From Geminocystis sp. GBBB08 (lineage in GTDB: Bacteria > Cyanobacteriota > Cyanobacteriia > Cyanobacteriales > Cyanobacteriaceae): a stretch of DNA of 36,433 nt. A program made the translations under genes and the position numbers. Under the pieces are notes generated by a model. It had not been told where the DNA came from. It was given only the letters and a program-made list of their open reading frames with translations, and ran no database searches. This document shows positions 28,836 through 36,394 of the stretch, piece by piece. The stretch's first letter is position 1. The number at the start of each line of letters is the position of its first letter. Location of the stretch: the NCBI RefSeq assembly GCF_016743215.1, contig NZ_VRZC01000021.1, positions 1 to 36,433 of the forward strand. Reading direction: 5' to 3'.

Positions 28836-30314
28836 CTAATTTTCTTGGATACGTTGTCGAATCTCTTTGAGGCTATAACATTTAATTAATTTACCATCAA
28901 GAAATACTGTTTCTAAAGCACCTTGTTTTTCTTGTTCAGGAGTTTGTTGTTCATATAAAATATAAGTATTATTTTCTTGTTCAATTCTTAGTAAACCTTT
29001 AGCGGATTTTTTAGTACCAGTATCAGTTTTAGGATTTTTAAAAATATCTCGCCGTTTACCGTTTACGACACCGCTAGTAGCTTTGACGGCAAATCCAAAG
29101 TTATCACGGGTGACGTATTGATAAGTGTAAGAACCAATACCAAAAACCACGTTTCCAGATGCAAAGCCTTTGATTTCTAATTGATGCAAAATCTGATAAG
29201 CTCGATCAAGAGTAATAGAGTCACCGTAAATTAAGCCAATATGAGAATCTAACATTTTATAGCCTTGGGGGGTAATTGTACCGCCAAAAATCTCCCATAA
29301 ACATTGAATTGCTCCTTTATATTCAGGGGTATCTTGAGGATAGCTAGAATCACCACAAATAATTTTAACAGGATCTCCACTATCGGGACGAATGACTAAC
29401 TTACCATTTCGTGCTATAATTTTTTCCTTAAGAAGAAGAGTATATTGGGTGATAACTTTCCAAAAATCCCAAGTATCAGAAACAATAGACACAATGCCTT
29501 GAGGATATAAGTCTTCTATTAATCGGCGAAATGTTTCTAATTCTCCATCTGGCATTCCCATTGCCATGACAGAATGTTCGGTTGCAGGTACAGAAACACC
29601 GATTATTTCCTCATCAGCATTGGCATTATAATAGTTTTCGAGAAAGTCGATAGCTAGTACCGTATCAGTACCACAAAAAGAAGTCAGATGAGCTGCACCA
29701 CTAACAATAGCATCTTGAATACTAGATAAACCTCGAAAAGAAAAATCATGACATTGAAAAGGAATAAAATCTAAAGGTGTGCCTGTTTGAATAGCGTATT
29801 TTGTGACTAACTTTTTGTATTGAAAAGCGGTGGTTGCGGAAGTTATGGGTTTCCATAAATAACAAGACATCACCGACTCGATGTAATTGGTTAACCAGAA
29901 AAAATCTGGGTGAGTATTGACAACAGTTAATAAGGGGATGCCTATTGGCACGAAACTACCTTCAGGTAAGGCTTTAATTTTTAAAGGTAAATAGCCTAAA
30001 TCGTGGAGGGCATTGATATGTTGTACAGAAATGGCATTAATTCCAAGGGAAGTATCCATGCGTCTTTTATAGACAGAGAGAACTTTTTGTTTATCTTGTT
30101 GAAAGAAATTTTTTTGCCAACAGTCGATTAAGTAATCTTGGAGAAAATATTGTAAACCAAAGAAGACGACACGAATATCATCAGAATCTAAAACTTTTGC
30201 TAAACGTCCACTACGGGGGGTAAAATTAGCATAAACTTCCGTTGTGCCTTGGGGATATTGACGACGATGATCAGTTTTGTAAAAATCAATAGCATTAAGA
30301 GGATTAATATTCAT
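28836..30314 (-). CDS. nadV: Nicotinamide phosphoribosyltransferase
   Basis: NadV (NAMPT) joins nicotinamide and PRPP to give NMN, the one-step salvage route to NAD. The 492-residue protein begins with DFYKTDHRRQYPQGTTEVYANF and TPRSGRLAK. Further family blocks are FQCHDFSFRGLSS, SVMAMGMPDGELETFRRL, VIRPDSGDPVKI and FGIGSYTYQYVTRDNFGFAVKATS. A Shine-Dalgarno-like AAAGGAAA precedes the ATG. It lies 87 bases after prs and 49 bases before the nrtR-like gene. PRPP made by the upstream gene product is its co-substrate. Confidence 0.95.
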   Translation of the reverse strand: MNINPLNAIDFYKTDHRRQYPQGTTEVYANFTPRSGRLAKVLDSDDIRVVFFGLQYFLQDYLIDCWQKNFFQQDKQKVLSVYKRRMDTSLGINAISVQHINALHDLGYLPLKIKALPEGSFVPIGIPLLTVVNTHPDFFWLTNYIESVMSCYLWKPITSATTAFQYKKLVTKYAIQTGTPLDFIPFQCHDFSFRGLSSIQDAIVSGAAHLTSFCGTDTVLAIDFLENYYNANADEEIIGVSVPATEHSVMAMGMPDGELETFRRLIEDLYPQGIVSIVSDTWDFWKVITQYTLLLKEKIIARNGKLVIRPDSGDPVKIICGDSSYPQDTPEYKGAIQCLWEIFGGTITPQGYKMLDSHIGLIYGDSITLDRAYQILHQLEIKGFASGNVVFGIGSYTYQYVTRDNFGFAVKATSGVVNGKRRDIFKNPKTDTGTKKSAKGLLRIEQENNTYILYEQQTPEQEKQGALETVFLDGKLIKCYSLKEIRQRIQEN

Positions 30315-30364
30315 AGTTGTTTCCTTTCTTTGTACCTTAAAGTGAAATAAATGAGATTAAAAAA

Positions 30365-30388
30365 CCTTTGCGCCTTTGCGCCTTTGCG
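30365..30388 (+). repeat. Three tandem CCTTTGCG units
   Basis: Three perfect CCTTTGCG octamers lie in the gap between prs and nadV. Similar short G+C-containing tandem units are scattered through cyanobacterial intergenic DNA. Confidence 0.85.
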
Positions 30389-30401
30389 AGATTTGCAAAA
30401 A

Positions 30402-31220
30402 TTAGAGATAAACAAAAGGTAAAATAGTTAAAAAATTACGATCTTGTTCTTGAGGAGATAACATAGTATGATGAGAATAAATATGATTAAAGTAAGGGCG
30501 TAATAAATCTAAACCTTTAGAAAAAATGCCATGGGTGATATAAAGACAAATTTTTATAGCACCTTTTTGTTGAAGTAATTTGCTTAACTCAATAAAAGTT
30601 TTACCACCATCACAAATATCGTCAACTATCAAAACTTTTCGCCCTTTAACATCATGATGAAAAGTAGTAGAGAGAATTTTTCCTGTTTTGGTATCACGGA
30701 TTTTAGTAGCACAAAAAACATCAGGTAAACCGAGACGTTTAGCCACTTCCTGAGTCTTTTTTTCTCCTCCAGCATCAGGGGCAATTAAAGCCCAATTATC
30801 CTTTAAAAGCTCATCTTTCAAACAACTTTGACTTAAAATATCAGCTTGAGTAATTATGTGAGTGTTATTTAATAAAGCTGGGGTAACATCAGAATGAGGA
30901 TCAACAATTACAATGCGATCGCATTTTAAATTATTAATCAAATCTGCCATGACTTTAACACTAAGAGCTTCTCCTTGATTACAAACTCGATCTTGTCTAG
31001 CGTAAGGAAAATAAGGAATAATTAACTCAAGACTGACAGTAGGTAAAATACGACGAATAGCATCGACAGTAAGCAATAAAGCCATAATATCATTAGCATT
31101 GTTTAAAATGGCCGTAATAACTGTTTTAGCTGTAATGATTTCTGGGGATAAACTAACATGACATTCTCCTGCTGGAAAATTAAAGGTTTTTATGGGTGAA
31201 TTATTAACTAATATGGGCAT
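30402..31220 (-). CDS. prs: Ribose-phosphate pyrophosphokinase of the NAD-salvage operon
   Basis: Makes PRPP from ribose 5-phosphate and ATP. From the ATG at 31220 it has 272 residues, shorter than the usual 310-330. It carries PYFPYARQDRVCNQGEALSV (ATP site), IVIVDPHSD, LIAPDAGGEKKTQEVA and the PRPP loop VLIVDDICDGGKTF. The frame is open to a GTG at 31259, but a strong AAGGAGGG site lies eight bases before the ATG at 31220, and the GTG is only about eight bases from the promoter's -10 box. Divergence from housekeeping Prs and the linkage to nadV suggest a dedicated PRPP supply for nicotinamide salvage. Confidence 0.92.
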   Translation of the reverse strand: MPILVNNSPIKTFNFPAGECHVSLSPEIITAKTVITAILNNANDIMALLLTVDAIRRILPTVSLELIIPYFPYARQDRVCNQGEALSVKVMADLINNLKCDRIVIVDPHSDVTPALLNNTHIITQADILSQSCLKDELLKDNWALIAPDAGGEKKTQEVAKRLGLPDVFCATKIRDTKTGKILSTTFHHDVKGRKVLIVDDICDGGKTFIELSKLLQQKGAIKICLYITHGIFSKGLDLLRPYFNHIYSHHTMLSPQEQDRNFLTILPFVYL

Positions 31221-31227
31221 TTTTTTA

Positions 31228-31235
31228 CCCTCCTT
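31228..31235 (-). promoter_or_regulatory. Shine-Dalgarno site deciding the prs start
   Basis: AAGGAGGG ends seven bases before ATG 31220. It would lie inside the coding region if the GTG at 31259 were used, so it argues for the shorter protein. Confidence 0.75.
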
Positions 31236-31266
31236 GCTAAATAAATGGCTTTGAGCCACTAAATAT

Positions 31267-33895: not shown

Positions 33896-33972
33896 TGATT
33901 TGTTAATTATTAATTGTTAATTGTGAGAGGGTGACTTTCTCATTCCTAATATCTAATTGCTCATTATTGATT

Positions 33973-34452
33973 ATGCCAAAAATTGTTTTAGTTCATCCTC
34001 AAATTCCCCCTAATACTGGTAATATTGCCCGAACTTGTGCTGCAACGGAAACAGAGTTACACCTTGTCGCACCTTTGGGCTTTGAAATTAGCGATCGCTA
34101 TTTAAAAAGGGCGGGTTTAGATTACTGGCCTCATGTAAAATTAACTTATCATCTTAGTACTGAAGATTTTATGAAAACCGCTAGAGAAAAAGGCGGAAGA
34201 TTAATCGGCTTAAGTGTTAGGGGTACAAAAAATTATCTCGAATGTGAATTTAAACCTGATGACTGGCTTCTATTTGGTAGTGAAACTGATGGTTTACCCT
34301 CAGAAGTTTTACAAAAATGTGATTTAACTTGTTTTATTTCGATGGCTAGTTCTCATGTACGCAGTTTAAATTTATCCGTCAGTGTCTCCGTAGTTTTATT
34401 TGAATCTTTACGCCAATTATCTATTACACTTCTTTCCGAAGTTAAAAATTAG
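33973..34452 (+). CDS. trmL: tRNA (cytidine/uridine-34-2'-O)-methyltransferase
   Basis: A SPOUT methyltransferase of 159 residues that methylates the wobble ribose of tRNA(Leu) isoacceptors. It starts MPKIVLVHPQIPPNTGNIAR at ATG 33973. The knot motifs are present: APLGFEISDRYLKRAGLDYW, LLFGSETDGLP and ISMASSHVRSLNLSVSVSVVLFE. The frame is open to a GTG at 33931, but those 14 residues do not belong to the family. The dndE-like gene follows closely on the same strand. Confidence 0.93.
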   Translation: MPKIVLVHPQIPPNTGNIARTCAATETELHLVAPLGFEISDRYLKRAGLDYWPHVKLTYHLSTEDFMKTAREKGGRLIGLSVRGTKNYLECEFKPDDWLLFGSETDGLPSEVLQKCDLTCFISMASSHVRSLNLSVSVSVVLFESLRQLSITLLSEVKN

Positions 34453-34480
34453 AAATTACAGCCAAGATGGCTATTCCACC
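34451..34480 (+). repeat. Diverged third copy of the ACAGGCAAGATGCCT repeat
   Basis: AGAAATTACAGCCAAGATGGCTATTCCACC matches the two units after hemA with compensating changes in the hairpin (GGC/GCC to GCC/GGC). It includes the ATG at 34467, which is therefore unlikely to be the real start of the next gene. Confidence 0.65.
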
Positions 34481-34499
34481 ATTATTAATTACTGAAAAG

Positions 34500-34895
34500 A
34501 TGCGATCGCCCATAGAAAAAATCAAACTATCGAAAAAAGCAAAGGATCAACTAATCAAGCTCAAAAAAAATACAAAAATAGAACAATGGAATGTGTTATG
34601 TCGCTGGGCATTTTGTCGTTCTTTAGCGGAAATTCATCCTCCTACACCTTATCCAATTCCAGCGGATAGTAACGTGGAAATGACTTGGCAAGTTTTCGGC
34701 GGGGATATGGCGGATATTTTGCTGTTAGCTTTAAAATATAGATGTCATCATGACGGATTAAAAACCAATTCAGAAACCTTAAACAGTCAATTTAGATTAC
34801 ATCTTCATCGTGGTATTGGTTATCTAGCAGGAGATTTTGATGTACAAAAGATCGAAAATTTATTTTACTTATGGTCCATAAACAATCCAAAATAA
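34500..34895 (+). CDS. dndE: DndE-like protein (DNA phosphorothioation family), orphan
   Basis: From ATG 34500 the protein has 131 residues. It matches the DndE family: IEKIKLSKKAKDQLIKLKKN, the hallmark WNVLCRWAFCRSLAE, DSNVEMTWQVFGGDMADILL and LNSQFRLHLHRGIGYLAGD. DndE works with DndA/IscS, DndC and DndD to put sulfur into the DNA backbone and has been linked to nicked-DNA binding. No dndB, C or D gene is in the window; neighbours are trmL and a UDG-fold gene. An ATG at 34467 lies inside a dispersed repeat, so the shorter start is preferred. Either a displaced dnd part or an independent role is possible. Confidence 0.8.
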   Translation: MRSPIEKIKLSKKAKDQLIKLKKNTKIEQWNVLCRWAFCRSLAEIHPPTPYPIPADSNVEMTWQVFGGDMADILLLALKYRCHHDGLKTNSETLNSQFRLHLHRGIGYLAGDFDVQKIENLFYLWSINNPK

Positions 34896-34896
34896 A

Positions 34897-34943
34897 AAAC
34901 CTCTGGGAGTCTTGCCATGTTTCGACCCCAAAGGTTTCTTTAT
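34897..34943 (+). terminator. Hairpin terminator after the dndE-like gene
   Basis: AAACCTCTGGGAGTC (34897-34911) pairs imperfectly with GACCCCAAAGGTTT (34924-34937) over a 12-base loop, followed by a T-rich TTTCTTTATTT. On the other strand the same stem is followed by TTTTTTA, so it could work in both directions. Confidence 0.55.
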
Positions 34944-35122
34944 TTAATTCCCTCACACCATAAGCGGATGTTTAATCCCCTATGTTTGTTAGTATAGCTC
35001 TTTTTTTTTTAACTGTCAACTTTTTTGGAAAGAAATTTAAAATCAGGATATTAGTCAATGGAGAATGGAGAATTAGGAAACTTACCCATTGCAAGAGTGC
35101 CCCTTGCCCATTACCCCTTGCC

Positions 35123-35243: not shown

Positions 35244-35927
35244 ATGGCTACTACTATAGAAAACTTAATCAATCGCATCCAAAAAGAAGCCCAAGCAGCA
35301 GAATTTCCTTTAGATATTCCTGTTTATGAATCTGCAAAAAAAGAACCCACTAAACCTATTTTATATTTTGGTAATTTAAAGAGCAATATTTGTTTTTTAG
35401 GGCGGGATTTAGGTAGAGAGGAAGTTATAGCAGGAGAGCCTTTAATTGGTGCTTCGGGAACATTAGTTCGACAGGGTTTTTATCGGGCAATATATAAAAA
35501 AGAGACGGAAGATAAAGCTAAATTACAGTTAATAAAAGAGCGTTTAATTTTAACTAATACTGTACCTTATAAACCGCCAGAAAATAAAGCCTATGGTGTA
35601 AAAGTCAAAAAAAGATTTCGTCCTTTTATTGAGGAATTTTTAGTGATTCATTGGCAAGGTAATCAAATTATTACTTTAGGTACTGAAGCGTTTAGATGGT
35701 TTGAATTTTACTCTACCAAAGAAGAGTTTAACACTTTTTGGGAACAAGGTGATCGCCGTTATCAACAAAGTTTAAACATCACCATGACGGCAGTAGATGA
35801 AGAGGATAAAACCCATGAAAAAAAAGTCAGTATATTTCCCTTACCTCATCCTTCACCTTTAAACCAAAAATACTATAATAGATTTACAGCAATGTTGCAG
35901 TATACATTATCACAAATAGAGTTTTAA
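35244..35927 (+). CDS. Uracil-DNA glycosylase superfamily protein
   Basis: The 227-residue protein has the UDG-fold pattern: ICFLGRDLGREEV followed by GEPLIGASGTLVRQGFYRAI (the position of the GEAPGxxED...GxPFVG motif of family 4/5 enzymes), ILTNTVPYKPPENKAYG, IITLGTEAFRWF and the His-Pro-Ser block PLPHPSPLNQKYYNRF. The first motif differs from the classical ones (GRDLG for GEAPG), so substrate specificity or even catalysis is uncertain. It ends two bases before the next ATG+1 region and is probably co-transcribed with the gene at 35930. Confidence 0.85.
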   Translation: MATTIENLINRIQKEAQAAEFPLDIPVYESAKKEPTKPILYFGNLKSNICFLGRDLGREEVIAGEPLIGASGTLVRQGFYRAIYKKETEDKAKLQLIKERLILTNTVPYKPPENKAYGVKVKKRFRPFIEEFLVIHWQGNQIITLGTEAFRWFEFYSTKEEFNTFWEQGDRRYQQSLNITMTAVDEEDKTHEKKVSIFPLPHPSPLNQKYYNRFTAMLQYTLSQIEF

Positions 35928-35929
35928 AA

Positions 35930-36394
35930 ATGCCAAATAAATGGTTAAAATTATTTATTTATTTATCTCTAACGATAATTAGTTATTTACTATTATTAAA
36001 TGGTTGTCAAATTTCTCCGAAAAAACTGCCTCCTTTACCGCAGGATTCTGCCATTCAAATTTATTTTAATCATAATCAAGCGAAGGGAAAAGAATATTTA
36101 GATCCTTATCGAAATATTCAACGTACTGGGGATAATTTAGAAGAGGTTATTATTGAGCAAATCAACAAGGCAACATCGACTTTAGATATAGCGGTACAAG
36201 AGATAAATTTAGCGAAGTTAGCAATGGCAATTGTCGCTAAAAAACAAGAAGGAATCAAAGTAAGAATAGTAATAGAAAATACTTATAATTTACCTTTAAA
36301 TAAACTTAATAAAAAACATGGTTTAGCTATTTTAAAACAAGCTAATATTCTTCAAATAAATCATTGGAAAATTGTTAGTAAAGGCAAGGATTAA
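35930..36394 (+). CDS. Truncated phospholipase-D-like lipoprotein
   Basis: A hydrophobic signal (residues about 5-24) ends in LLNGC, a plausible lipobox with Cys26, so the protein is likely exported and lipid-anchored. The rest (DAIQIYFNHN-like start, LEEVIIEQINKATSTLDIAVQEI, GIKVRIVIENTYNLPLNKLN, HGLAILKQANI) matches the first part of PLD-type nucleases. It stops at 154 residues, before the first HxK motif, while relatives run to 400 or more with two. The last dozen residues look non-native. The remainder could be in another frame beyond the window edge, only 39 bases away. As written it cannot be catalytic. Confidence 0.75.
   Translation: MPNKWLKLFIYLSLTIISYLLLLNGCQISPKKLPPLPQDSAIQIYFNHNQAKGKEYLDPYRNIQRTGDNLEEVIIEQINKATSTLDIAVQEINLAKLAMAIVAKKQEGIKVRIVIENTYNLPLNKLNKKHGLAILKQANILQINHWKIVSKGKD

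Follow-up and report, generated by a model that had tools for sequence, protein, structure and literature searches.

A solitary dndE gene in Geminocystis sp. GBBB08 as a probable part of a scattered phosphorothioation system

Descriptions of the Dnd DNA-sulfur machinery usually present its genes as one compact cluster that is often mobile, with DndD and DndE an obligate linked pair. Here, we describe a dndE gene of the cyanobacterium Geminocystis sp. GBBB08 that stands apart from any such cluster on a 36,433-base stretch of DNA (the window, which is the entire contig NZ_VRZC01000021.1), and ask whether a DndE in this position is a working protein and with what it works. No DndC, no DndB-type PF14072 protein and no over-cut-off DndD was found on this contig in whole-genome profile searches, which upholds the absence of dndB, dndC and dndD noted in an initial annotation made from the letters alone. 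We put at about 0.82 the probability that the sole DndE of this organism works in trans with distant DndC and DndD proteins as a phosphorothioation complex. The analysis draws on the identity and predicted fold of the protein, its partners in the genome, their co-retention and purifying selection, and the dispersal of the same genes in relatives. The object of interest is the scattered system as a whole, the DndE protein itself being ordinary. Papers are cited by PMC number, and labels in G, C and L denote genomes, contigs and loci of our sample.

Identity and fold of the DndE protein

The open reading frame (ORF) at 34467-34895 (+ strand; 142 aa from its first ATG) matches PF08870 with 152.7 bits against a cut-off of 25 (E 5.5e-45) and the NCBI equivalog TIGR03184 with 127 bits (curated cut-off 71.85). 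Translation probably begins at the ATG at 34500, giving 131 aa, because Met12 aligns with the first residue of most homologues (26 and 24 sequences aligned). An octamer, GCGATCGC (34502-34509), which we take to be the cyanobacterial HIP1 repeat, overlaps this likely start codon. The AlphaFold2 model (pLDDT 85.7) has strands at residues 18-20 and 71-73 and helices at 23-36, 41-53, 74-95, 102-122 and 129-139, predicting two ribbon-helix-helix units, each strand-helix-helix, with a long second core helix; this repeat is the one described for DndE (PMC10853773). In Foldseek, the 17 best PDB matches of the model are without exception DndE chains; next come chains of the F-plasmid relaxosome, taken to be TraY through the comparison in PMC10853773. 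A PDB search with a profile of 24 homologues returned only three distinct sequences at E 0.1 or better, all DndE: 7X4E, 4LRV and 5WTU, the last being the G21/24K mutant of 4LRV.

By predicted fold and profile match the protein is therefore like the DndEs of Natronorubrum bangense (7X4E) and Escherichia coli B7A (4LRV), with a Foldseek E of 3.6e-05 and TM of 0.83 by target, VIA Z scores of 16.8 (114 residues, 2.9 A) and 13.6 (103 residues, 1.9 A), and about 22-26% identity. Cyanobacterial DndEs are basic (K34 and K37 in the window protein) where the E. coli B7A protein has G21 and G24, and tighter DNA binding has been reported for the E. coli G21/24K variant (PMC9239217). The block WNVLCRWAFC, which the initial annotation read as the DndE signature, is highly conserved among 24 aligned cyanobacterial DndEs (N42, L44, C45, R46, W47 and C50 are invariant), but the PDB DndEs carry other residues there, so it is the signature of a subfamily and not a universal one. 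Profile scores and predicted fold together confirm that 34467-34895 encodes a genuine, ordinary DndE, the small DNA-binding subunit of the DNA-sulfur machinery.

Dispersed partners and their retention

The window genome (4.10 Mb, 325 contigs, 99.9% complete) holds one DndE in a PF08870 search, one dndC (C13:3616-4947, 690.7 bits) and one over-cut-off dndD (C256:15812-17785; TIGR03185 616.7 bits, cut-off 245.85), together with a second, weaker DndD match that is probably the CxC ATPase on C323 described below. DndE is thus an orphan at the scale of the window and not at that of the genome. A complete dnd cluster with another dndE was sought in the genome and was not found. The suggestion that DndE partners a distant dnd locus held as far as the partners go, dndC and dndD being present elsewhere and co-retained in relatives; there is no distant cluster, since dndC and dndD are themselves apart. 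With some 10 kb or more of sequence on either side of it in a 28 kb contig, dndD is not adjacent to dndE, which ends 1.5 kb from one end of the window; dndC begins 3.6 kb into a contig of 13.1 kb. Separation on contigs is weak evidence in so fragmented an assembly, and it is the relatives that settle the dispersal.

In the family of the window gene (f1), dndC, dndD and dndE are unlinked in 7/7 genomes. They lie on different contigs in Geminocystis sp. GBBB08 (three contigs) and G151, and on one contig in the other five, where dndD and dndE are 476 kb to 1.83 Mb apart and dndC and dndD 227 kb to 2.29 Mb (computed without regard to chromosome circularity); the canonical adjacent dndC-D-E operon is thus absent from the window genome and from these five, with more than 0.2 Mb between each pair. 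Family f2 is dispersed too (three genomes on one contig, two on different contigs), and in f8 dndC and dndD are together with dndE apart (4/4). Of the 91 genomes with all three genes, 58 have dndD and dndE within 5 kb of each other; in another 16 the two share a contig at a distance of 10 kb or more, and in the remaining 17 they fall on separate contigs. The single contig of G187 carries dndC at 0.30, dndE at 1.76, the CxC ATPase at 2.52, dndD at 2.59 and dnd_assoc_4 at 3.75 Mb, no closer than random placement (P 0.30). At two other loci a small protein is encoded between dndC and dndD (L066:13363-13776, L067:10899-11330), which we take to be an IS200-type transposase; such insertions could be one way in which dispersal comes about.

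Each of 386 cyanobacterial genomes was searched for the three proteins. DndE was found in 96, DndC over its cut-off in 94 (118 at E 0.001) and DndD in 95 (170 at E 0.001); 98 genomes have at least one of the three genes and 91 have all. Within the window's order (105 genomes) the full set is present in 90, a partial set in 5 and none in 10. DndE occurs without DndC in G070, G159, G170 and G367 and without DndD in G159 and G385, and DndC without DndE in G008 and G058. Several of these partial sets look like assembly edges, with dndD beginning close to the edge of a contig in G008, G070 and G367. In G170 a 401-aa DndC-like protein beside dndE (L113:4802-6007; 25% identity to canonical DndC) replaces DndC. 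In G385, dndC, dndD and dndE (L112) are all interrupted by stop codons, as is dnd_rel_methyl about 440 kb away (G385:C1:929759-931741), an apparent co-decay of unlinked genes. That the set is retained while unlinked is an argument for a cellular function, and not joint travel, as the reason the proteins are kept, and its persistence in related genomes makes the lone dndE probably a working part and not a relic.

All three genes are full-length ORFs in 7/7 f1 genomes. Ratios of nonsynonymous to synonymous substitution (dN/dS; Nei-Gojobori, four f1 pairs covering 5/7 genomes, dS up to 1.3) are 0.02-0.17 for dndE, 0.04-0.07 for dndC and 0.11-0.21 for dndD. The three genes are under purifying selection in this family, which is a constraint on each protein and no proof of joint function. 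DndC is mostly the most constrained of the three in the f1 pairs, except in G109/G119, where dndE is lower; it is the least constrained protein in the two f6 pairs with clustered genes. Trees were built for 25 of the 29 genomes fetched, leaving out G170 (no canonical DndC), G213 and G312 (no dndE fetched) and G385 (broken genes). Family f1 forms one clade in the DndC (1.0), DndD (1.0) and DndE (0.974) trees. Of 22 splits, the DndC and DndD trees share 9, DndC and DndE 5, and DndD and DndE 5, against about 0.2 for shuffled labels; most splits differ between trees, as short genes or exchange may explain. Largely vertical inheritance of the system is the best reading of these trees.

DndC retains the P-loop S-x-GKDS and C140, C247, C258, C265 and C268 in 27 cyanobacterial and 8 other proteins, and these five cysteines match those named for E. 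coli B7A DndC (reference DndCs came from a protein search; a DNA search of plasmids with dndC gave 4 records). The window genome has a cysteine desulfurase homologue (C45) scoring 436 bits, below the dndA cut-off of 480, and IscS can replace DndA (PMC8569181, PMC10853773). Three residues of a DndC loop have been linked to the modification site (PMC12193691). In the reference proteins this loop reads TRS (E. coli H240, Aliivibrio), NQN or NQT (two haloarchaea) and RPK (Streptomyces, Agrobacterium), with KPK (Nonomuraea) and NTE (Chlorohelix) outside the described classes. All 27 cyanobacterial loops open with R, a feature shared with the GGCC class. Thirteen of them read R-x-K/R and 12 R-x-G; R-N-Q occurs once, and R-Q-N once, in the window genome. 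R-x-G is found in 6/7 f1 members and in six others, some of them with clustered genes. From these residues GGCC, or a relaxed form of it, can be offered as the target site as a prediction only.

In published models, DndC receives sulfur from the desulfurase on a 4Fe-4S cluster, DndE is bound by the coiled coil of DndD, and DNA is modelled as passing through a positively charged ring that DndE and DndC line. By analogy, a cysteine desulfurase of the window genome would hand sulfur to the Fe-S enzyme DndC, whose specificity loop would select the site, and DndE would ride the coiled coil of the DndD ATPase, holding the DNA. The window gene would contribute the DndE part of the complex. Assembly of the proteins, phosphorothioates in the DNA and the GGCC-like site are what we infer from the observations above.

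A second ATPase module and competing explanations

In three clusters read in other families, the dnd companions comprise a 690-aa DndD-like ATPase, dnd_assoc_4, dndC, dndD, dndE and dnd_rel_methyl, and some of these clusters add an HNH nuclease or DGQHR or DndB-like proteins. The second ATPase carries a CxC zinc hook (CICG) in 10/10 proteins read, that of the window genome included, and CxC is found in 0/27 DndDs. PADLOC names the CxC ATPase of the window genome PbeC (PDLC02753, 882 bits); because the top-scoring PADLOC model for the canonical DndD likewise bears the name PbeC (796 bits, the DndD model reaching 711), the two ATPases were told apart by the CxC motif and the TIGR03185 cut-offs.

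Searches for this module and for restriction partners covered 80 of 108 genomes (the 105 of the order and 3 more; 23 of the 28 omitted have a congener that was kept). The CxC ATPase is present in 65/80 (E 1e-40 or better) and dnd_assoc_4 over its cut-off in the same 65, so that their distributions are identical in 80/80 genomes, a 44-bit remnant full of stops (G268) being counted as absent. The pair occurs in 64/68 genomes with DndE and in 1/12 without it (G008, which has dndC and dndD). It is scattered in the window genome (C323 and C103), and within f1 the CxC match is partial in G145 (45-687 of 690) and G151 (1-410). The predicted structure of dnd_assoc_4 (pLDDT 81.4) has DndE chains as its best VIA matches (Z 9.0, rmsd 3.5, 111 aligned; then 8.7 and 8.7), above a relaxosome chain (Z 5.5) and the next match (2.8), on a scale where values below about 8 (13 for helical bundles) may reflect a common arrangement; Foldseek gave no significant match (best E 0.49). 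Kinship to DndE at the level of sequence was considered and rejected (hhalign probability 1.2; no match in an hmmsearch of the PDB). On its modelled fold, dnd_assoc_4 is a candidate DndE-like partner (PbeD) of the CxC ATPase. All seven f1 genomes have an SF2 helicase that resembles PbeA in its helicase half and is 58-61% identical to the CxC-adjacent copy of G167. The gene dnd_rel_methyl is tied more loosely, being over its cut-off in 70/80 genomes including the dnd-poor G076, G093 and G133.

Restriction partners were sought in the same genomes. TIGR03238 (dnd_assoc_3) was over its cut-off in 0/80, with none in the window genome and 21.2 bits in G121; it matched 0/14 controls and had no positive control. 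We take this model to represent DndH, DndF and DndG lying outside the search. NF045808, the phosphorothioate-restriction HNH model, was likewise over its cut-off in 0/80, matching 44/80 at E 0.001 and 2/14 controls; near-full-length matches, all below the cut-off, occur in 19/80 and several lie inside dnd clusters (L097, L098, L101). In f1 its matches are confined to the HNH half, which is unspecific, or are shorter. One of five PADLOC models for PbeA (PDLC02703) was used, itself unspecific with matches in 79/80 genomes and 11/14 controls; among the matches listed, a single one spans the nuclease and helicase halves in 5/80 genomes, with G116 adding both halves in two pieces, and none does so in f1. 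The best match in the window genome covers the helicase half only (250-614 of 626), and there is a weak N-terminal match on C177 (58.8 bits). DndB-type PF14072 is over its cut-off in 56/80 genomes, with 215 bits on C177 of the window genome and at most about 43 bits in its f1 relatives.

These searches bear on what the system is for. A set that is mainly anti-phage, with DndCDE marking self and the CxC ATPase, dnd_assoc_4 and the SF2 helicase acting on unmarked DNA, would suit the wide distribution of the CxC ATPase with its intact hook, the PbeA-like helicase throughout f1, and the HNH nucleases resembling the phosphorothioate-restriction model in some clusters elsewhere. We consider it unlikely, though well short of negligible, given the few both-halves PbeA matches and their absence from f1, the lack of any over-cut-off TIGR03238 match, and the helicase's persistence (76% identity) in G051, where dnd is lost; a single copy per genome, found across the order, is also unlike what is generally expected of most defence systems. 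A resident modification, serving redox protection or as an epigenetic mark, is more likely than a classical restriction-modification system, since f1 has neither an over-cut-off dnd_assoc_3 nor a near-full-length phosphorothioate-restriction HNH match, with the caveat that a PbeC-type ATPase, dnd_assoc_4 and the SF2 helicase co-travel with the dnd set. Taken further, and tentatively, at somewhat below even odds, phosphorothioation in f1 may be a housekeeping system with an exploded operon: DndC and two separate ATPase pairs, DndD-DndE and CxC-dnd_assoc_4, single-copy, vertically inherited and scattered along the chromosome, without DndFGH or a full-length phosphorothioate-dependent nuclease. 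Its DndC loops, R-x-G in the relatives and R-Q-N in the window genome, would then lie beyond the described classes and perhaps select a new target site.

Two other explanations would leave DndE outside any working phosphorothioation complex. It may have abandoned the phosphorothioation machinery on leaving the cluster and have a separate DNA-binding role in f1, for instance with trmL or a repair enzyme, as its distance from dndC and dndD, its position 14 bases behind a tRNA-methylase-like gene and the presence in G159 of dndE without over-cut-off dndC or dndD might suggest. This is improbable: dndC and dndD are kept in 7/7 f1 genomes and are under purifying selection in the pairs tested, the window neighbours were not found beside dndE in the relatives surveyed, and G159 (200 contigs, a fragmented dnd_rel_methyl), the only one of 96 DndE genomes to lack both partners, may be decaying or incomplete. 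That the scattered set is instead a decaying remnant, its expression broken by dispersal and its genes being lost, is very improbable, although real decay is seen in G385, the CxC matches of G145 and G151 are partial, and the authors of a Microcoleus study suggested that function may be affected where dndBC lies apart from dndDE (PMC8546630); full-length genes throughout f1 and dN/dS of 0.21 or less at dS up to 1.3 argue the other way.

Several points nonetheless weigh against a complex acting in trans, which is proposed here on sequence and predicted structure. With the window genome in 325 contigs, the separation of its own genes leans partly on relatives. The dndA search is unspecific, matching all 14 controls, and the RQN loop of DndC matches no described class exactly. 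DndE and DndD evolve faster than DndC in f1. The DndC tree splits f2 and f6, and f2 (two genomes) is a clade in 0/3 trees, so some dnd genes may have been exchanged. Finally, the Fisher p-values for co-occurrence in the 386 genomes (about 1e-81 to 1e-87) overstate independence because the 98 genomes share ancestry.

Surroundings of dndE, known systems and significance

Upstream of dndE, a SpoU-family 2'-O-methyltransferase gene (33931-34452, +; PF00588 119 bits) is TrmL-like, its TIGR00185 score of 183.9 bits being slightly below the cut-off of 190.6; the gap of 14 bases means that it and dndE are possibly on one transcript. A terminator-like hairpin (34890-34945, +) overlaps the dndE stop codon: the fold of 34885-34955 has -18.6 kcal/mol (z -4.28; 0/200 shuffles as stable), and the hairpin is absent from the output of a simple terminator scan. 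Given this hairpin, dndE probably ends its transcription unit, and the gene of the uracil-DNA glycosylase (UDG) superfamily at 35244-35927 (+; PF03167 60.5 bits) is probably a separate unit. That protein reaches only about 30 bits with family-4 UDG models (cut-offs 125 and 250), and its gene is outside the dnd system. We compared eight window neighbours with other dndE loci by tblastn (12 loci of 16-19.5 kb and 29 of 3.3 kb, three genomes being in both sets), a survey of 38 distinct genomes out of the 95 other DndE-bearing ones, six of the same family and 26 covered for only about 1.5 kb either side of dndE. None of the eight, trmL and the UDG gene included, was beside dndE in these 38 genomes. 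The trmL-dndE-UDG order, which the initial annotation had taken as a hint of function, was therefore dropped as a clue: an order unseen elsewhere tells little about function, and the window sequence gives no hint that DndE depends on local neighbours. Of that annotation's interpretation it is the distant-partner alternative that survives.

Elsewhere in the window, two adjacent ORFs at 28836-31259 (- strand) have motifs that we take to be those of a nicotinamide phosphoribosyltransferase and a ribose-phosphate pyrophosphokinase, a pairing known from phage NAD-restoring pathways. A 154-aa ORF at 35930-36394 (+) matches positions 1-70 of 132 of PLDc_2 (26 bits, cut-off 27) and is possibly truncated or frameshifted near the contig end.

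Dispersal per se is partly known. The cyanobacterial dnd systems described in 2021 (Jian et al., PMC8569181) are alike in belonging to the same order, in the vertical inheritance of one DndD clade and in lacking dndFGH, and the paper speaks of 'various configurations' and a 'disorder of the operon structure'; a complete dispersal map, the CxC/dnd_assoc_4 module and an analysis of linkage against retention were not found in its available text. Microcoleus strains also have a split set, in which 40 kb or more separates dndBC from dndDE and impaired function was suspected (PMC8546630); D and E are named together there, whereas in f1 each of C, D and E stands by itself and is constrained. A 2024 reappraisal (PMC10853773) describes DndD-DndE and CxC-DndE dyads, and both classes of ABC ATPase are present here; f1 differs in that D and E lie 0.48-1.83 Mb apart in five genomes. 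An earlier report has dndC-D-E still clustered in cyanobacteria (PMC2442094). Our literature search, which reached few subscription journals and no supplements, returned no paper that describes full dispersal, or a measurement of phosphorothioate, in these cyanobacteria. What is new is the completeness of the dispersal, its contrast with strong retention, and the two-module composition; dndE itself is not new.

Surveys that demand adjacent genes undercount such dispersed systems. If the reading of a complex acting in trans is true, organisms with single, unlinked copies of these genes would allow asking about a resident role of phosphorothioation beyond restriction.
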